Source: Methylovulum sp.
GTDB taxonomy: Bacteria; Pseudomonadota; Gammaproteobacteria; Methylococcales; Methylomonadaceae
Reading direction: 5' to 3'
DNA: 32,055 nucleotides
Assembly (NCBI GenBank): GCA_016919605.1
Contig: JACXTQ010000254.1
Coordinates: 1-32,055 of the forward strand
In this document: piece after piece, positions 1-14,494 of the stretch
Position numbering within the stretch: position 1 is the first letter of the stretch
Layout: every line of letters begins with the position of its first letter
Position numbers and translations under genes: made by a program
Notes under the pieces: generated by a model
What the model saw: the letters and a program-made list of their open reading frames with translations, nothing else
Database searches by the model: none
Told to the model about the DNA's origin: nothing

Positions 1-1278
1 CGTTATCAGCATCTTCGCCACTGGCGCGTAAATAAACAGCAACAGCGTGGCGAGCAACGCCAGCGGCACGAGCAAAAAACTGATGACGGGTACGGCGACC
101 ATATTCGCCAAAGGCGCACAGAGGGACACTTGCTGGAAAAAGAACAGCAACAACGGCGCTAGGCCTAACGAAGTGTAGCCATTGATACGGATGGCCTCAC
201 TGAGATAATGTAGCTGGCCTAGCCGTCCGCTGATGGCGTAAACAATCACCGCCACCGCGAAATAAGATAACCAAAACCCTGGCAACAACACCGCCAAGGG
301 GTCATACACCAACACCACAAACAAGGCCAAGGCTAAAGTGTGGAAAGGCCGTACCGGACGCTGGCAAATAATCGCCAGCATCATGACCACCAACATCACT
401 ACCGCGCGTTGCGTGGGTACAGAAAACCCCGCCAGTGCCGCATAAAAAATCCCCGCCACTAATGCCGCCATTGCCGCCACTCTCGGCGGCGACCATGCCA
501 AGTACGCAGTCCATGCCCAACACCGTGCCACTAGCCAATATACCAATCCGGCAATTAAGCCGATATGCGAGCCGGATATGACCACCAAATGCGTAGTGCC
601 GGTTTGCCGGAAAATATCCCAAGACGCTGGGCTAATATCATTGCCAAAGCCGATGGTTAAGGCCTTCAGCAGGGCAATGTGTTCGGGGTTCATCGGCAAA
701 GCCGACAGACGGTCATTAATGGCTTGCCGCCACAGGGCAATAGGTGTCCGCCATGAGGCTTGCGCCAATAAAACGGGCTTGGGATAGGGGCGCACACTTC
801 CGGTTGCGCCAATGCCTTCGGTGAACAGCCAACGCTCATAATCAAAACCACCCGAATTCAACGTGCCATGCGGCTGTCTGAGCTTAACCGTCAATGTCCA
901 GATTTGCCCAGCCTTAACGGCTTGTTCCGGCGAATGCCAACTTAAGCGTAATTTTGATGGGATATGCACCGGGGCTTGCGTCACTAGCAAATCAAAACGG
1001 GTAAGCGGGTCGGACAATTCGGGCAAATCGGCAATCCTGCCCGTAACCACAACATCGGTACCCGCCAAAGATGCAGGTAAACGGTCAGCAAGCCGGTAAC
1101 TGGCAAACAAAGTCGCCCAGAGGATGCCGAGGAAGAAAAACACCCCGAAGCGGCAACGCCAATACGCTATCAACCCCACCGCAATGGCACAGAGGATTAG
1201 CCAAGGCAGTGCGGGTAACTGCGCCAACTGCTGCACCAGCAAAATCCCAGCGAGAAAGGCGGGGGCGATGATGATCAT
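1..1278 (-). CDS. comEC: ComEC/Rec2 family DNA internalization protein (partial, runs off left edge)
   Basis: Manual translation of the minus strand from ATG at 1278 gives an open frame to base 1: MIIIAPAFLAGILLVQQL...FRQTGTTHLVVISGSHIGLIAGLVYW..., with the ComEC 'GTTHLVVISGSHIGL' hallmark and many TM segments. Absent from the ORF track because it has no stop in the window. Confidence 0.93.
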   Translation of the reverse strand, partial: MIIIAPAFLAGILLVQQLAQLPALPWLILCAIAVGLIAYWRCRFGVFFFLGILWATLFASYRLADRLPASLAGTDVVVTGRIADLPELSDPLTRFDLLVTQAPVHIPSKLRLSWHSPEQAVKAGQIWTLTVKLRQPHGTLNSGGFDYERWLFTEGIGATGSVRPYPKPVLLAQASWRTPIALWRQAINDRLSALPMNPEHIALLKALTIGFGNDISPASWDIFRQTGTTHLVVISGSHIGLIAGLVYWLVARCWAWTAYLAWSPPRVAAMAALVAGIFYAALAGFSVPTQRAVVMLVVMMLAIICQRPVRPFHTLALALFVVLVYDPLAVLLPGFWLSYFAVAVIVYAISGRLGQLHYLSEAIRINGYTSLGLAPLLLFFFQQVSLCAPLANMVAVPVISFLLVPLALLATLLLFIYAPVAKMLIT

Positions 1279-6659: not shown

Positions 6660-6849
6660 TTTAAAATGTTGCTGTGCAGGGCATCTTCGGGGTTCTTAAA
6701 GCTCAGCTTGGCAATCTGGTGGTGGGGCGGCAACAGCTGGGCCAAACAATTTTCTAAAGCCAACATCGGTATAGTGGTTGAGATATTTTCCGCTTATTGG
6801 CTGGTCGCCCAAGTCGTTAACAATCATGGGCGGTAGATAATGGGCCCTG

Positions 6850-9621
6850 TCAGTTATTGATCAATTTCAAGCCCGGTGGCAATGCCTCGCCGAAAATTTG
6901 CTTTTCGTCCTTTTCGTCCAGTTCTTTCACTTCTTCCACTAGCCCTATCCACGATGCGGGGGCTTTGCTGAGTTTTAGCTTTTCGCTGATTTGTAGGCGC
7001 AAACTTTCATCAATGTCGCGGCTACGGTCGCCGCTCATTCGCGCCACCAAGGTGGCGGCAAAGCCGATGTGCGGCGATTTTTTCCAATCTTGGCCGAGCA
7101 TCTGTTCTAACCAAACTGCGACCACATCCGGGGGGATGACGTTGTGGTTGCTGCCATGAAACGGCACCCGCGCCCCGATACGTCCGACCGCCCACCACGT
7201 TTGGTCCGGTTCGCTGGGTTTTTGCAGGCGCAATAACAGCCATTCGCCCAACTGGGTTTTTTGTGCTATGGGCAAACGTTCTAAGACCGCTGCCAAACGC
7301 ACGATTTCTTCATAGCCACGGGTCTTAAGCTGTTTGGCTATGCCGGGTTGGCGAGCCACTGCCGGATTGATATATTTGCTGATATCGGTAAACAATTGCT
7401 CTTGGATGCTGGCATTCAGGCCACCGGCTATACGCCGCCAGAGTGTCCACCATTCCGTCCAGTTTTGGATTTCGTTAACGAATTGGATACCATGCGGATA
7501 GTGTTTCCACAATTGCTCAACCCGCCAGTTATCCAGTGGATAGCCGTAGCCAGGGCGCAGGCAAAATCCAATCAGGCTTAACCAAATTCGCTCATGGTTA
7601 TCCGAACGGCGGTGATATTTGCCGCCCTCCAGCAACAGTGCAAACAGCTCCCGCAATAAGGGAGTGGCCCATTCATGACGAGGGGTGCCGACAATTTTTT
7701 CCAATTCCGCCCGTAAATTCTTCACCGCTTTAGGGTCTACCTGTTTGGACTTGGTGCCGAAAATGGTTTGGATTTTTTCTTCCAAACGCTGCATTTTTTC
7801 GACGGGTAAGGCCACGTGTGCCGAGGCGGCGGTACGGCTTTTCTTGCGGATTTGAAATTCCACATCCCAGCGTTGCTGGGGGTTATCCACTGCGACGCAT
7901 TGGATTTTTAGCGTCCCCACTTCAGTTTGCGTGACCGCCAATTGTACCACCACCTCACGGGCTGCCGCTTCGCCATCGTTGTGTAAGGCGACTGCCAGTG
8001 GCGGCAGGGAGTGGAAATCATCATTGATGTCGGTGACATCGCCCGGTTTAAATTCATTATCGCCGGTGGTCGAAGCCAAATGGAAGCGTACCGGAACCCC
8101 TAAGCGCAAAGCAAATTGCCGCCCCTTTAAGATGACCTCATCGCCTTCTTCGCTACCTTTGGGTAAAATACAGACACCTTGCTGGACATCATCGGTGTCG
8201 GTATCAACCAATAAAAAATAACTGCGGGCCGCACCACCGCCAATTTTGAGTTTTTTGTCGCGGCGGGCTACGGCGTAACTGACCGCGCCAAACGCCACCG
8301 CCAATTCTGGATGCTGGTTTTCCAGCAACACGGGCGGCTGGGTACGCCATGAGGCCATTAAGGCCAGTAGCCTTTGCGTAATCGGTTGGCTGCGGAACAC
8401 GCCGCCATTGAGTAACAGCGCGTCCGGCACACCCGCTACGCCCCCTAAAGCTTCGTGGGCGGCGTGGCTATGTTGCTTTAAAAATGCGGCGATATGTTTG
8501 CTCACGGCAGGTTCGGCGGCGTAAGGCAGGCCAAACTCCACCACCCCGCTACGTTTGCGGTCAGGTAGGTCAGCCAGCCCCGACAAGGGAAAAAAGCCAT
8601 CCAAGGCAATATCCCTGACTTCTTCGCGGCTTAAGATGGCCGAGCGGGAACTGCCGATTAATTTGGAGCCACCGCCCAATAAAGTGACATTGACGTGGGC
8701 TGGCGCGTCTTCGGCCAGCAAACGCTCTTTGGCGATCCGGCATTGCTCTATCAACTGCGAAAAATCCGCCGCCGACAAGCGTTTGTCGCCGGAACTCAAG
8801 CGGCTTTCCGCCAGATGCGCCAAGGCCAGATCAATATTATCACCGCCCAGCATCAAATGGTCGCCGACCCCGATACGGGTCAGTTTGGGTTCGTGTGCGC
8901 CTTGCTCCACCTTAATCAGCGTCAAGTCGGTGGTGCCCCCGCCCACGTCACAAACCAGCAATAGATGCACGTTGGCCAAGGCTTGCTGGAGATTACCAGC
9001 ATTGCGGCGCAACCAGTCGTAACAGACGGCTTGCGGCTCTTCCAGCAACCGCACTTGTTCAAGCCCGGCTAGCTTTGCAGCTTCTAGGGTCAATGAGCGA
9101 GCGGCCTCATCAAACGAAGCGGGGACGGTGATGACAATATCTTGCTGCTCTAAAGGCGCATCGGGGAACTTATGCCGCCAAACCGTGCGGATATGTTGCA
9201 AATAGCTGGCGCTGGCATCAATCGGTGAAACTTTGCTGATGTCTTCGCTACTGCCCCACGGCAAAATGTCGGCACTGTGATCGACCGAGGGGTGCGATAA
9301 CCAGCTTTTTGCGCTGGTCACAAAGCGGCCTTTGGTTTTTGCCCCCAATACCCGCGCTGCTTCGCCTATCACCGCCGCTTCCCCGGCGGGTGAAAAGCTA
9401 ACATCGGCGGCTGACAATTCGCCTTCTGCCGGATGGTAGCGCACCGAAGGCAGTAAGGGGCGTGCCGCCACTTGTCCAGGGGCAACCAGTTGTTCGATAG
9501 GAAAGATTTGGATGTCAGCGGTTTTGTGATCGGCACTGCTGCCAATATAGGCATACGCGACCACCGTATGGGTTGTGCCTAGGTCGATGCCGACTAAATA
9601 ATGGGGGGCTTGATGTTGCAC
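6850..9621 (-). CDS. Hsp70 family protein with long C-terminal (DUF3731-type) extension
   Basis: 923 aa; 'LVGIDLGTTHTVVAYA', 'LEEPQAVCYDWL', 'LLLVCDVGGGTTDLTL' actin/Hsp70 ATPase motifs, then a C-terminal region ('LLRELFALLLEGGKYHRRSDNHERIWLSLIGFCLRPGYGYPLD'). Confidence 0.92.
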   Translation of the reverse strand: MQHQAPHYLVGIDLGTTHTVVAYAYIGSSADHKTADIQIFPIEQLVAPGQVAARPLLPSVRYHPAEGELSAADVSFSPAGEAAVIGEAARVLGAKTKGRFVTSAKSWLSHPSVDHSADILPWGSSEDISKVSPIDASASYLQHIRTVWRHKFPDAPLEQQDIVITVPASFDEAARSLTLEAAKLAGLEQVRLLEEPQAVCYDWLRRNAGNLQQALANVHLLLVCDVGGGTTDLTLIKVEQGAHEPKLTRIGVGDHLMLGGDNIDLALAHLAESRLSSGDKRLSAADFSQLIEQCRIAKERLLAEDAPAHVNVTLLGGGSKLIGSSRSAILSREEVRDIALDGFFPLSGLADLPDRKRSGVVEFGLPYAAEPAVSKHIAAFLKQHSHAAHEALGGVAGVPDALLLNGGVFRSQPITQRLLALMASWRTQPPVLLENQHPELAVAFGAVSYAVARRDKKLKIGGGAARSYFLLVDTDTDDVQQGVCILPKGSEEGDEVILKGRQFALRLGVPVRFHLASTTGDNEFKPGDVTDINDDFHSLPPLAVALHNDGEAAAREVVVQLAVTQTEVGTLKIQCVAVDNPQQRWDVEFQIRKKSRTAASAHVALPVEKMQRLEEKIQTIFGTKSKQVDPKAVKNLRAELEKIVGTPRHEWATPLLRELFALLLEGGKYHRRSDNHERIWLSLIGFCLRPGYGYPLDNWRVEQLWKHYPHGIQFVNEIQNWTEWWTLWRRIAGGLNASIQEQLFTDISKYINPAVARQPGIAKQLKTRGYEEIVRLAAVLERLPIAQKTQLGEWLLLRLQKPSEPDQTWWAVGRIGARVPFHGSNHNVIPPDVVAVWLEQMLGQDWKKSPHIGFAATLVARMSGDRSRDIDESLRLQISEKLKLSKAPASWIGLVEEVKELDEKDEKQIFGEALPPGLKLINN

Positions 9622-9921: not shown

Positions 9922-10851
9922 ATGAGCAATAAAAATTCAGGATTTTCCATTATCAACGGCGATGCCGCCAATCTTACCCATAAAACCGTGCTGGTGGTCG
10001 GCATTGGCCGGGGCGGCACATCAATGGTGGCGGGTGTGTTGTCAAAGCTGGGCATTTTCATGGGTGAAGGTTTGTCTTCACGTTATCAGGATAACGCCCT
10101 GCTGGATTGCCTGCAACGTAACGATAAAAAACAGGCAAAAAAAATCATCAAGGAGCGTAATAGCTGCTATCCGGTTTGGGGAGTAAAGAAACTGCGCTTA
10201 TGGCGTTGGAACCATCTGTTCCGCGAGCGGGTGTATGTCGTTATATTAAGGGATATTTTCGCTACGGCCAATCGGCGGGTGACGCTGTACAACATTTCTC
10301 TGTTATCGGAAATGTTTAAGGTTTTGGGGCTTAATTTTAGCTTGCTGCTATTTTTATGGCTGACCAAACGCCCACTATTTATAGCCTCTTATGAAAAAGC
10401 CCTGATGTTTCCAGAAGAGTTTGTCACTGGCTTGTCAGTCTTCTTAGGCTTGGAAAACCCTATAGGTTTTACCGATGCGGTGCAATTTATCAACCCATCG
10501 CCGCCTACCTATACTAACACTTTAGTCAAATTTAAGGTCATCGCTGACAATAAGACTTATCAGGGCTATATAGACGCACTAGAAGCTAGGCAAATAATCG
10601 GCTGGGCGGTGTCTTTGCTAAACACCGGCCCTGTGGTGTTGGATCTGTTCGTTAACGGCCTTTATAAACAGACGGTCAGCACCCATTTGTCGCGGCTTGA
10701 TGTGTCCAGCCAAGACCCTCGTTTTTATGAACATTGCGGCTTTGTGTTTTACTTGCCTGAAGAAGATAGTTTACGGCCTGGCGACACTATTGAGGTGAAG
10801 ATTGCCGGACAAAATATAGCCCTTAACAACTCACCGCAAGAGTTTATTTAA
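9922..10851 (+). CDS. Sulfotransferase-like P-loop protein with C-terminal GWA-type domain
   Basis: 309 aa; 'KTVLVVGIGRGGTSMVAGVLSKLGIFMG' (5'-PSB-like loop), 'VVILRDIFATANR' (3'-PB-like), C-terminal 'YQGYIDALEARQIIGWAVSLLNTGPVVLDLFVNGLYKQTVSTHLSRLDV...CGFVFYLPE'. Confidence 0.65.
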   Translation: MSNKNSGFSIINGDAANLTHKTVLVVGIGRGGTSMVAGVLSKLGIFMGEGLSSRYQDNALLDCLQRNDKKQAKKIIKERNSCYPVWGVKKLRLWRWNHLFRERVYVVILRDIFATANRRVTLYNISLLSEMFKVLGLNFSLLLFLWLTKRPLFIASYEKALMFPEEFVTGLSVFLGLENPIGFTDAVQFINPSPPTYTNTLVKFKVIADNKTYQGYIDALEARQIIGWAVSLLNTGPVVLDLFVNGLYKQTVSTHLSRLDVSSQDPRFYEHCGFVFYLPEEDSLRPGDTIEVKIAGQNIALNNSPQEFI

Positions 10852-12552: not shown

Positions 12553-12635
12553 AAGGGTGGCTGGGAATGCTGGTATGTCCTAGCTGACTTTGGTGGTGGG
12601 GGATACGTTTATGTACATTAACTTGAGAAATAACA

Positions 12636-13730
12636 ATGCTTGATCTCGCCTCTGTATTGTCACCAATGACAATAAGCTTAGATAATTTACTGCTTGATCC
12701 TAATAATCCACGATTTTCTGAATTGGGCGAAGAAATTAATCCGATTCCAGAGCTACGTTTTAATGAAGACAAAGTTCAGGGCAGCACTTTGGCGAAAATG
12801 AAAGACCCCGTGTTTGGTGTCAATGAGTTACGCGACACTATTAAAACCTTGGGATTTTTGCCTATGGATAGGATTGTGGTGCGTAAATGGAAGGGTGCGC
12901 CTGAAAAGTTTGTGGTTATCGAAGGCAATAGGCGCGTTACGGCCTTAAAATGGTTGATTACCTTAAATGACACAGGCAAAGAAACTTTTACTGAACAGCA
13001 AATAGCTAATTTTACGGAACTACAATGTCTGTTGCTTGATGATGAAATTGCGCCTGATATGGCGCATTTGATTTTGCCGGGCTTACGGCATATTTCGGGC
13101 ATTAAGGAGTGGGGGCCTTATCAAAAAGCGAAAGTGATTGTTGCCTTGCGCGAATCCGGCATGAGTTCACAGGAAACGGCTCAAAGCTTAGGGTTATCTA
13201 CTAGGGCGGCCAACCAAGCCTACCGTTGTTTTATGGCTTTGGAACACATGCGTAAAGATGAAGAATACGCTGATTTTGCAACGCCGAAAATGTACAGCTA
13301 TTTCGAGGAGGTCTTAAAAAAACCCACCATAAAACAATGGTTGGGTTGGAATGACAGCACTGAAAAATTTGAAAAAACGGACGAGCTATCAGAATTTTAT
13401 AGCTGGATAGCACCATCTGAACATAATGAGTCACTTAAGTTACCCGAAGCTGTTAGTGTAAGGGACTTGGGTAAAATTATCCAAGATGATAATGCCATGC
13501 GGACGTTCCGCTCACCCAGCGGCACATTAGTGCAAGCCTTGGTTAAATATGAAGTTGAACATCCAGAAGAATGGACTCCGAAAATTTTTACCGCTACCTC
13601 GGCGTTAAGGTCATTAACACCGGATAAGCTGCGCAATATGGATAATTCTGCCCAGGCGGCGATTGAAGAGTTAGCGAGGACAATCGAACAAGTTTTAAAA
13701 GATAGGGCCGCCTTGCTTGGTGTTCAATAA
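12636..13730 (+). CDS. ParB/Srx N-terminal-domain protein with HTH region
   Basis: 364 aa; 'ISLDNLLLDPNNPRF', 'LRDTIKTLGFLPMDRIVVRKW...FVVIEGNRRVTALKWL' (ParB-like GxRR box), then 'KAKVIVALRESGMSSQETAQSLGLSTRAANQAYRCF' (HTH). Confidence 0.8.
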   Translation: MLDLASVLSPMTISLDNLLLDPNNPRFSELGEEINPIPELRFNEDKVQGSTLAKMKDPVFGVNELRDTIKTLGFLPMDRIVVRKWKGAPEKFVVIEGNRRVTALKWLITLNDTGKETFTEQQIANFTELQCLLLDDEIAPDMAHLILPGLRHISGIKEWGPYQKAKVIVALRESGMSSQETAQSLGLSTRAANQAYRCFMALEHMRKDEEYADFATPKMYSYFEEVLKKPTIKQWLGWNDSTEKFEKTDELSEFYSWIAPSEHNESLKLPEAVSVRDLGKIIQDDNAMRTFRSPSGTLVQALVKYEVEHPEEWTPKIFTATSALRSLTPDKLRNMDNSAQAAIEELARTIEQVLKDRAALLGVQ

Positions 13731-13741
13731 GGGGGGGGCAA

Positions 13742-14494
13742 ATGGGACAACCCTCGACACAGGCAATTGCTCAATGGGCTATTGAAAGCTTGGATTCTGA
13801 AGAATGGCTGTCGTTGCCAGAAATCTGTGTCAATGGGGTAAAAAGCAATACCCAATGTACGGATGCGGAAATCAGCGAGCTGATTGAGAGTGGGTTAAGC
13901 CACATTGCCCGCATTTTACGCGATAAGGCGGCATTGGCGAAAGAGCATGGCGAAGTAGTGACCTATCAGATTGATGAGGAAGAACCCCCTTATATCAGAA
14001 AGATTACTGAGGTTTATCCGCCACTTTTAAAAGAACTCCAAAAGATGGACTCCGATAAGTTTGAGCATCTTTGTGCGCAAATACTCGAGGCACTTGGTTG
14101 GGAAGTGACGACACGTACAGGCAGCACTCAAGATGATGGGGTTGATTTTCATGCTTTTGGTTTCCCTAGTTCCCGACTTTTTCATTTGCCTATACCGCCT
14201 AGTTGCAAAATATTGGTTATTGGACAGGCAAAACGCCATAAACGGGGCAACGACATTTCAGAAACTGACATTAGGAAGTTTGTCGGTGGTGCATTGAAAA
14301 AATTAAATGATTTTCGTAAATCAGGAAAGGTAGGGGTACTGACTCCGGTTGTCTTTGCGTTTTGGACTTCCTCGGATTTTGGTGATCCAGCCAAAGAATA
14401 CGCTAAAACAATGGGGATTTGGTTTATGAATGGCAGAACCTTAATTGAATATTTACGCACATTGAACTTAGAGGCCGGTGTGTTAGCCTCTTAA
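13742..14494 (+). CDS. Mrr-like PD-(D/E)XK restriction endonuclease-family protein
   Basis: 250 aa; 'MDSDKFEHLCAQILEALGWEVTTRTGSTQDDGVDF...CKILVIGQAKRHKRGNDISETDIRKFVGGALKKL' matches the Mrr catalytic layout (D ... QxK). Starts 11 nt after the ParB-like stop. Confidence 0.85.
   Translation: MGQPSTQAIAQWAIESLDSEEWLSLPEICVNGVKSNTQCTDAEISELIESGLSHIARILRDKAALAKEHGEVVTYQIDEEEPPYIRKITEVYPPLLKELQKMDSDKFEHLCAQILEALGWEVTTRTGSTQDDGVDFHAFGFPSSRLFHLPIPPSCKILVIGQAKRHKRGNDISETDIRKFVGGALKKLNDFRKSGKVGVLTPVVFAFWTSSDFGDPAKEYAKTMGIWFMNGRTLIEYLRTLNLEAGVLAS

Follow-up and report, generated by a model that had tools for sequence, protein, structure and literature searches.

Two adjacent genes in a Methylovulum genome, encoding a ParB/Srx-fold protein with a helix-turn-helix domain (ParB-HTH) and a separate Mrr-type PD-(D/E)XK nuclease, form a pair that has not been described before and that combines a putative ParB-superfamily switch with a nuclease in parts unlike those of SspE, DndI, GmrSD or PDC-M38. 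The pair is probably, by our prediction, a mobile two-subunit DNA restriction module directed against phages or foreign DNA. Besides the genome of the window, more than 45 others have the ParB and Mrr genes side by side, a recurrence far beyond chance, and the two genes co-evolve. The window is the whole contig of 32,055 nt, taken from a 2.8-Mb assembly of 403 contigs with a completeness of about 77%, and the window pair denotes its ParB-HTH and Mrr genes (Table 1).

A first-pass annotation, made from the letters alone, had described two same-strand open reading frames 11 nt apart with a G-rich stretch between them, which agrees with the coordinates that we find; the gap reads TAA-GGGGGGGG-CAA-ATG and resembles a ribosome-binding site. 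The motifs that it had singled out, VIEGNRRVTALKWL and an HTH segment in the first protein and TGSTQDDGVDF...VIGQAKRHKRGND in the second, are all present in the translations. By Pfam, the neighbors in the window are ordinary genes (gatB, radical SAM/DUF3641, Hsp70-like, Fur, BamE and glycosyltransferases), and neither a ParA nor a methyltransferase was found among those scanned, as had been claimed. No inverted repeat above chance was detected in the spacer between gatB and the ParB gene. The flanks of the pair are 96–97% identical to a contig of Methylovulum sp. STA_76. Elsewhere in the window, a 70-bp stretch between the BamE and Hsp70-like genes (6671-6740) is a dispersed repeat, with a 92% identical copy at 9463-9534 of locus L025. 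A 309-aa open reading frame upstream of gatB (9922-10851), with no Pfam match, has a counterpart of 99.7% identity in the sister genome, whereas the other relatives inspected showed none next to gatB.

Table 1. Features of the ParB-HTH and Mrr gene pair, in nucleotide positions of the window or residues of the encoded proteins
Feature	Position	Strand	Details
gatB-ParB spacer	12553..12635	+	83 nt, presumed promoter region
ParB/Srx-fold + HTH gene	12636..13730	+	364 aa, ATG start
ParB-Mrr intergenic gap	13731..13741	+	11 nt, eight consecutive G, putative ribosome-binding site for the nuclease gene
Mrr-type PD-(D/E)XK nuclease gene	13742..14494	+	250 aa, ATG start
Box I region	ParB-HTH aa 20-27		LDPNNPRF
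C-motif helix and loop	ParB-HTH aa 62-78		helix 62-72, loop GFLPMD
Box II/P-motif	ParB-HTH aa 96-100		EGNRR
Divergent Box III	ParB-HTH aa 151-165		RHISGIKEWGPYQKA
HTH	ParB-HTH aa about 161-206		
C-terminal domain	ParB-HTH aa about 217-361		conserved, all-helical
N-terminal domain of nuclease	nuclease aa about 6-87		helical, with a pair of short strands
Mrr_cat	nuclease aa 99-237		

The first protein is too divergent for the Pfam ParB models, none of which matched it, and Pfam returned a sub-threshold HTH alone; NCBIfam gave a weak match to TIGR00180 (parB_part, 5.6e-4). An AlphaFold2 model built from 55 relatives (mean pLDDT 91, pTM 0.72) matched KorB, Noc, ParB and Spo0J in Foldseek (best E 3.6e-7), which bears out the earlier assignment of a ParB/Srx N-domain followed by an HTH. 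Residues LDPNN, RF, EGNRR, R151, W159 and G186 are invariant in the 55 aligned ParBs, i.e. Boxes I and II are kept throughout the family and are more conserved than the HTH, and Box III is replaced by RHxSGxxxWxPYxKA. The last 150 residues are all helical and include the nearly invariant F223, E225, W235, W238 and W257. Two motifs known from the ParB-CTPase fold (PMC12704722), the base-contacting C motif and the P motif (GNRR), are both recognizable; the nucleotide preference of this fold is not predictable from sequence (PMC12704722), and because Box III departs from that of canonical ParB, neither clamp closure nor the use of CTP is assured.

For the second protein, the Mrr PD-(D/E)XK call proved right: it matches Pfam Mrr_cat (5.3e-15), the catalytic residues D135, Q162 and K164 of the D...QxK motif are invariant in 47 aligned nucleases, and the closest solved structures to its model (pLDDT 92, pTM 0.85) are MspJI, FokI and AspBHI, with MspJI recovered by profile as well. 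The annotation had named a missing catalytic fold as grounds for abandoning the pairing; the predicted structure has the fold. Judging from secondary structure, residues 6-87 may form a winged helix.

A scan by ParB patterns alone, with one genome per species, yielded 60 loci; it relies on two peptide patterns and hence under-samples more divergent ParBs. The ParB tree has a core clade of 58 rows, two of them identical, and in 48 of these an intact Mrr gene is the next gene on the same strand, so that the close homologues, whose rare co-occurrence would have spoken against the pairing, prove to be strongly conserved together. The Mrr gene is truncated or frame-broken in three rows (L011, L033, L056) and absent in one (L068), two rows run off the end of a contig (L021, L069), two carry a ParB fused to an ATPase, and two, both from DPANN archaea (L039, L048), have an unrelated partner. 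These last partners (L039 9059-9844, L048 9069-9971) look similar to each other, and the one tested, from L039, has no Pfam match. Among 46 distinct intact pairs, the genes overlap in 31 and lie within 20 nt in a further 14; the overlaps are upper bounds because starts were chosen by the longest open reading frame. Distances among ParBs and among their Mrr partners are correlated at r = 0.90, a value reached in none of 2000 permutations, the highest of which did not exceed 0.16. Viewed from the nuclease, 399 genomes gave 30 Mrr matches with loci, most of them generic Mrr enzymes that lack a ParB; a ParB partner accompanies only the two top-scoring ones and the Mrr of a divergent pair in L134.

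The distribution of the pair is that of a mobile, easily lost module, sporadic within the host family and spread between phyla, as judged from a ParB tree that mixes phyla, the few host-family genomes that carry it, and its broken or absent state at the gatB site. The window clade includes members from Sphingobium, Aeromonas, Lamprocystis, Syntrophaceae, Nitrospirota and Bacteroidales, and the pair also occurs in an Altiarchaeales archaeon (L049) and on a provirus-like contig (L070). Within the host family, 8 of 201 genomes have a ParB relative (L150, L151 and L153 carry the pair), and in the 20-odd genomes listed for the genus the ParB gene is found in only two, broken in one. The nearest relative (L025/L101) carries, at the same gatB site, a ParB gene disrupted by a frameshift and a stop, which gives way to unrelated DNA beyond about codon 127. 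In 18 other relatives, the 1.5 kb following gatB hold no trace of the pair. Beside this broken ParB, at about 8371-8700 of L025, a roughly 120-bp MITE-like element with near-perfect inverted ends (GGCATAAGTATCTACACAA) was seen by eye. In PLSDB, the ParB has three distant matches (at most 66% of the query) and the nuclease none, which indicates that the pair is not a typical plasmid module. Plasmid exclusion, one of the roles that the annotation had suggested, finds no specific support.

Distant ParB relatives occur with other partners, e.g. a PLD-like nuclease and ResIII helicases (L063-L067), or a different PD-(D/E)XK-looking gene together with either a Dam-like enzyme (L008) or, in P2-type phages, a C5 methyltransferase. 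The ParB-HTH is the constant part, and both the cutter and the self-mark differ, which suggests that the ParB-HTH is the recognition and switch subunit. Three ParB-like genes stand in tandem behind a ResIII-type helicase in L066 (8001-11517). In the P2-type phages (Wphi, P2SIAC10, D14A, 12474; L157 228-3266, L158 2369-5336, L159 204-3240), a QC[GA] motif replaces QxK in the nuclease-like gene and the C5 methyltransferase is convergent; this arrangement is possibly an undescribed ParB-based restriction-modification (R-M) system.

One branch of the module is linked to DNA phosphorothioation. DndC was found in exactly seven of the 46 pair-bearing genomes searched, and absent from the 39 others; these seven form one monophyletic ParB clade (support 100/99), and dnd or pbe genes adjoin six of its seven loci, the seventh being L035. 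The pair sits between the PbeC and PbeA genes in L031 and L032, and directly after DndF-G-H with dndB-E convergent in L038; L037, L043 and L068 lie next to dnd modification genes. The ParB operon of L043 and L068 holds a second DndB-like gene, and no dndFGH were seen within the 8 kb examined at these two loci. This operon (L043 6187-9987, L068 6207-9086) encodes a 170-aa protein, the second DndB-like protein (Pfam DndB 3e-29 in L043) and the ParB-HTH, with dnd modification genes beside it; the Mrr gene is present in Pseudomonas huaxiensis (L043) and absent in Erwinia persicina (L068). Outside the dnd clade the pair stands alone. Neighbors in the window clade include genes for type II/III methyltransferases, restriction endonucleases, AbiE, DRT and DrmMI, in a listing made without a matched control set; no modification partner is conserved in these loci, which counts against a restriction role and leaves self/non-self discrimination there unexplained. 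A four-gene R-M operon considered for L041, L042, L044, L046, L047 and L049 was rejected, the upstream genes scanned being ordinary (ABC transporter, Mo-co oxidoreductase, peptidase and similar). The earlier statement that no classic R-M role fits therefore stands for the window locus, where no methyltransferase was found among the neighbors scanned, and does not extend to the family, for which a restriction role does fit, given the clade in dnd/pbe loci and the distant ParB relatives beside DNA methyltransferases.

Among named defense systems, the closest is PDC-M38, whose PADLOC profile PDC-M38A (PDLC04607) is matched by all 55 ParB family members, with profile positions 10-363 of 715 spanning the whole window ParB-HTH (1.6e-50). 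The full PDC-M38A protein is, however, a ParB-HTH fused to an OLD/AbiEii-like AAA ATPase (AAA_21, 1.3e-19), and its system has a separate downstream gene of about 290 aa, TOPRIM-looking by eye, whereas the window pair has no ATPase and an Mrr as partner. None of the 47 Mrr partners matches the PDC-M38 partner in PADLOC, so that PADLOC names the ParB half and not the pair. Elsewhere in the window assembly, the OLD-like ATPase half occurs twice with no ParB half attached (G000:C62:3298-4419, G000:C403:4420-5316), and both copies contain a single in-frame stop. The N-terminal part of the ParB protein also matches PD-Lambda-5_A weakly (1.1e-13 for the window, 2.7e-22 for the best relative), a component of a system that protects against phages experimentally (Vassallo et al. 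2022, PMC9519451); PD-Lambda-5 differs in its longer A protein and predicted methyltransferase, a component that the window pair lacks, and in having no Mrr partner. In SspE, DndI and GmrSD (DUF262 ParB-like with HNH), a ParB-superfamily NTPase domain is coupled to a DNA nuclease, sometimes together with phosphorothioate systems (PMC13251355, PMC11662687, PMC4619093). These combine DGQQR with HNH, usually in one chain and without an HTH, whereas the window pair has EGNRR, an HTH and a separate Mrr, and gives no DUF262 or DUF1524 match in Pfam. MspJI and the Mrr type IV enzymes share the nuclease fold and the D...QxK motif. In MspJI the modified-base reader is part of the nuclease chain, whereas the second subunit of the window pair is a ParB-HTH. 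The ParABS ParB, KorB and Noc share the fold and the order of ParB domain and HTH, and differ from the window ParB, which has no ParA, a divergent Box III and another conserved C-terminal helical domain. No literature naming the ParB-HTH and Mrr pair was found in a wide search of freely accessible paper texts, and none on "PDC-M38"; the word Mrr is absent from the text of a 2025 survey of the ParB-CTPase fold (PMC12704722) and from that of a 2024 Dnd survey, and a canonical ParB-HTH body coupled to a separate restriction nuclease was found neither in the former nor in the other literature consulted. This agrees with the earlier view that no named system has exactly this composition.

We infer defense as the function of the pair, in which the ParB-HTH subunit would use its HTH to bind DNA and its ParB fold to bind a nucleoside triphosphate. 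Once it encounters its target, it would license or load the separate Mrr nuclease, which would then cut the target DNA. The coupling of a ParB fold to a nuclease established for SspE, a GTPase of the ParB superfamily whose sensing of phosphorothioate licenses the nuclease attached to it (PMC13251355), may serve as a precedent by analogy, and DndI offers a second one (PMC11662687). In the dnd-linked clade the target would probably be read against phosphorothioate marks. At stand-alone loci such as that of the window, which have no adjacent self-protection enzyme, the trigger would be either a modification on foreign DNA, in a type IV-like manner, or a mark made by an unlinked host enzyme. A more tentative reading, which we hold to be less likely than not, is that an NTP-switched ParB clamp (CTP, ATP or GTP) loads on foreign DNA and recruits the Mrr. 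The pair would then represent a family of restriction enzymes with specificity and on/off state set by the ParB-type switch, one branch of which would be a hitherto unrecognized effector of phosphorothioate-dependent restriction next to dndBCDE and pbe genes.

The main rival is a toxin-antitoxin or abortive infection system, which we regard as rather unlikely, in which Mrr is a self-toxic DNase that the ParB-HTH, as its antitoxin or repressor, sets free upon infection or loss. Such a system would account for the compactness of the two-gene operon, in which the DNA-binding partner leads, and for broken genes, in that intact Mrr of this subfamily was never seen without an intact ParB and ParB persists beside a broken or absent Mrr (L011, L033, L056, L068), a pattern that is in itself ambiguous. 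Both proteins are, however, large for type II systems, and a targeting subunit is a better fit to the ParB relatives that are joined, by fusion or pairing, to other nucleases and modification systems. In addition, palindromic operators upstream of the pair are not above shuffles in 23 loci, and autoregulation through such an operator accordingly finds no support. The same lack of an operator-like repeat speaks against an improbable scheme of type IV-like restriction, in which Mrr would locate modified DNA by itself and the ParB-HTH would act solely as a regulator of expression, like a C protein. The nearest solved nucleases, MspJI and AspBHI, are indeed modification-dependent, and the N-terminal domain of Mrr could itself bind DNA, but the two proteins strongly co-evolve, and the greater conservation of Boxes I and II relative to the HTH is not expected of a plain repressor. 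That the first gene is a partition or chromosome housekeeping ParB beside an unrelated nuclease gene, as its fold and HTH might suggest, is hardly credible, being contradicted by distribution and context: the adjacency of the two genes is kept across phyla, presence is sporadic within family and genus, and no ParA was seen among the scanned neighbors. Plasmid partition was rejected on the last two grounds, in line with the annotation, which had judged a partition role not to fit.

ParB-fold proteins are known to serve as NTP switches in much more than chromosome segregation (PMC12704722). If the restriction proposal is true, the pair would be a compact, heterologously testable system for studying how a ParB-type switch licenses DNA cutting, and its dnd-linked clade would offer a candidate for the restriction partner that is missing from loci in which dndBCDE has no dndFGH nearby.
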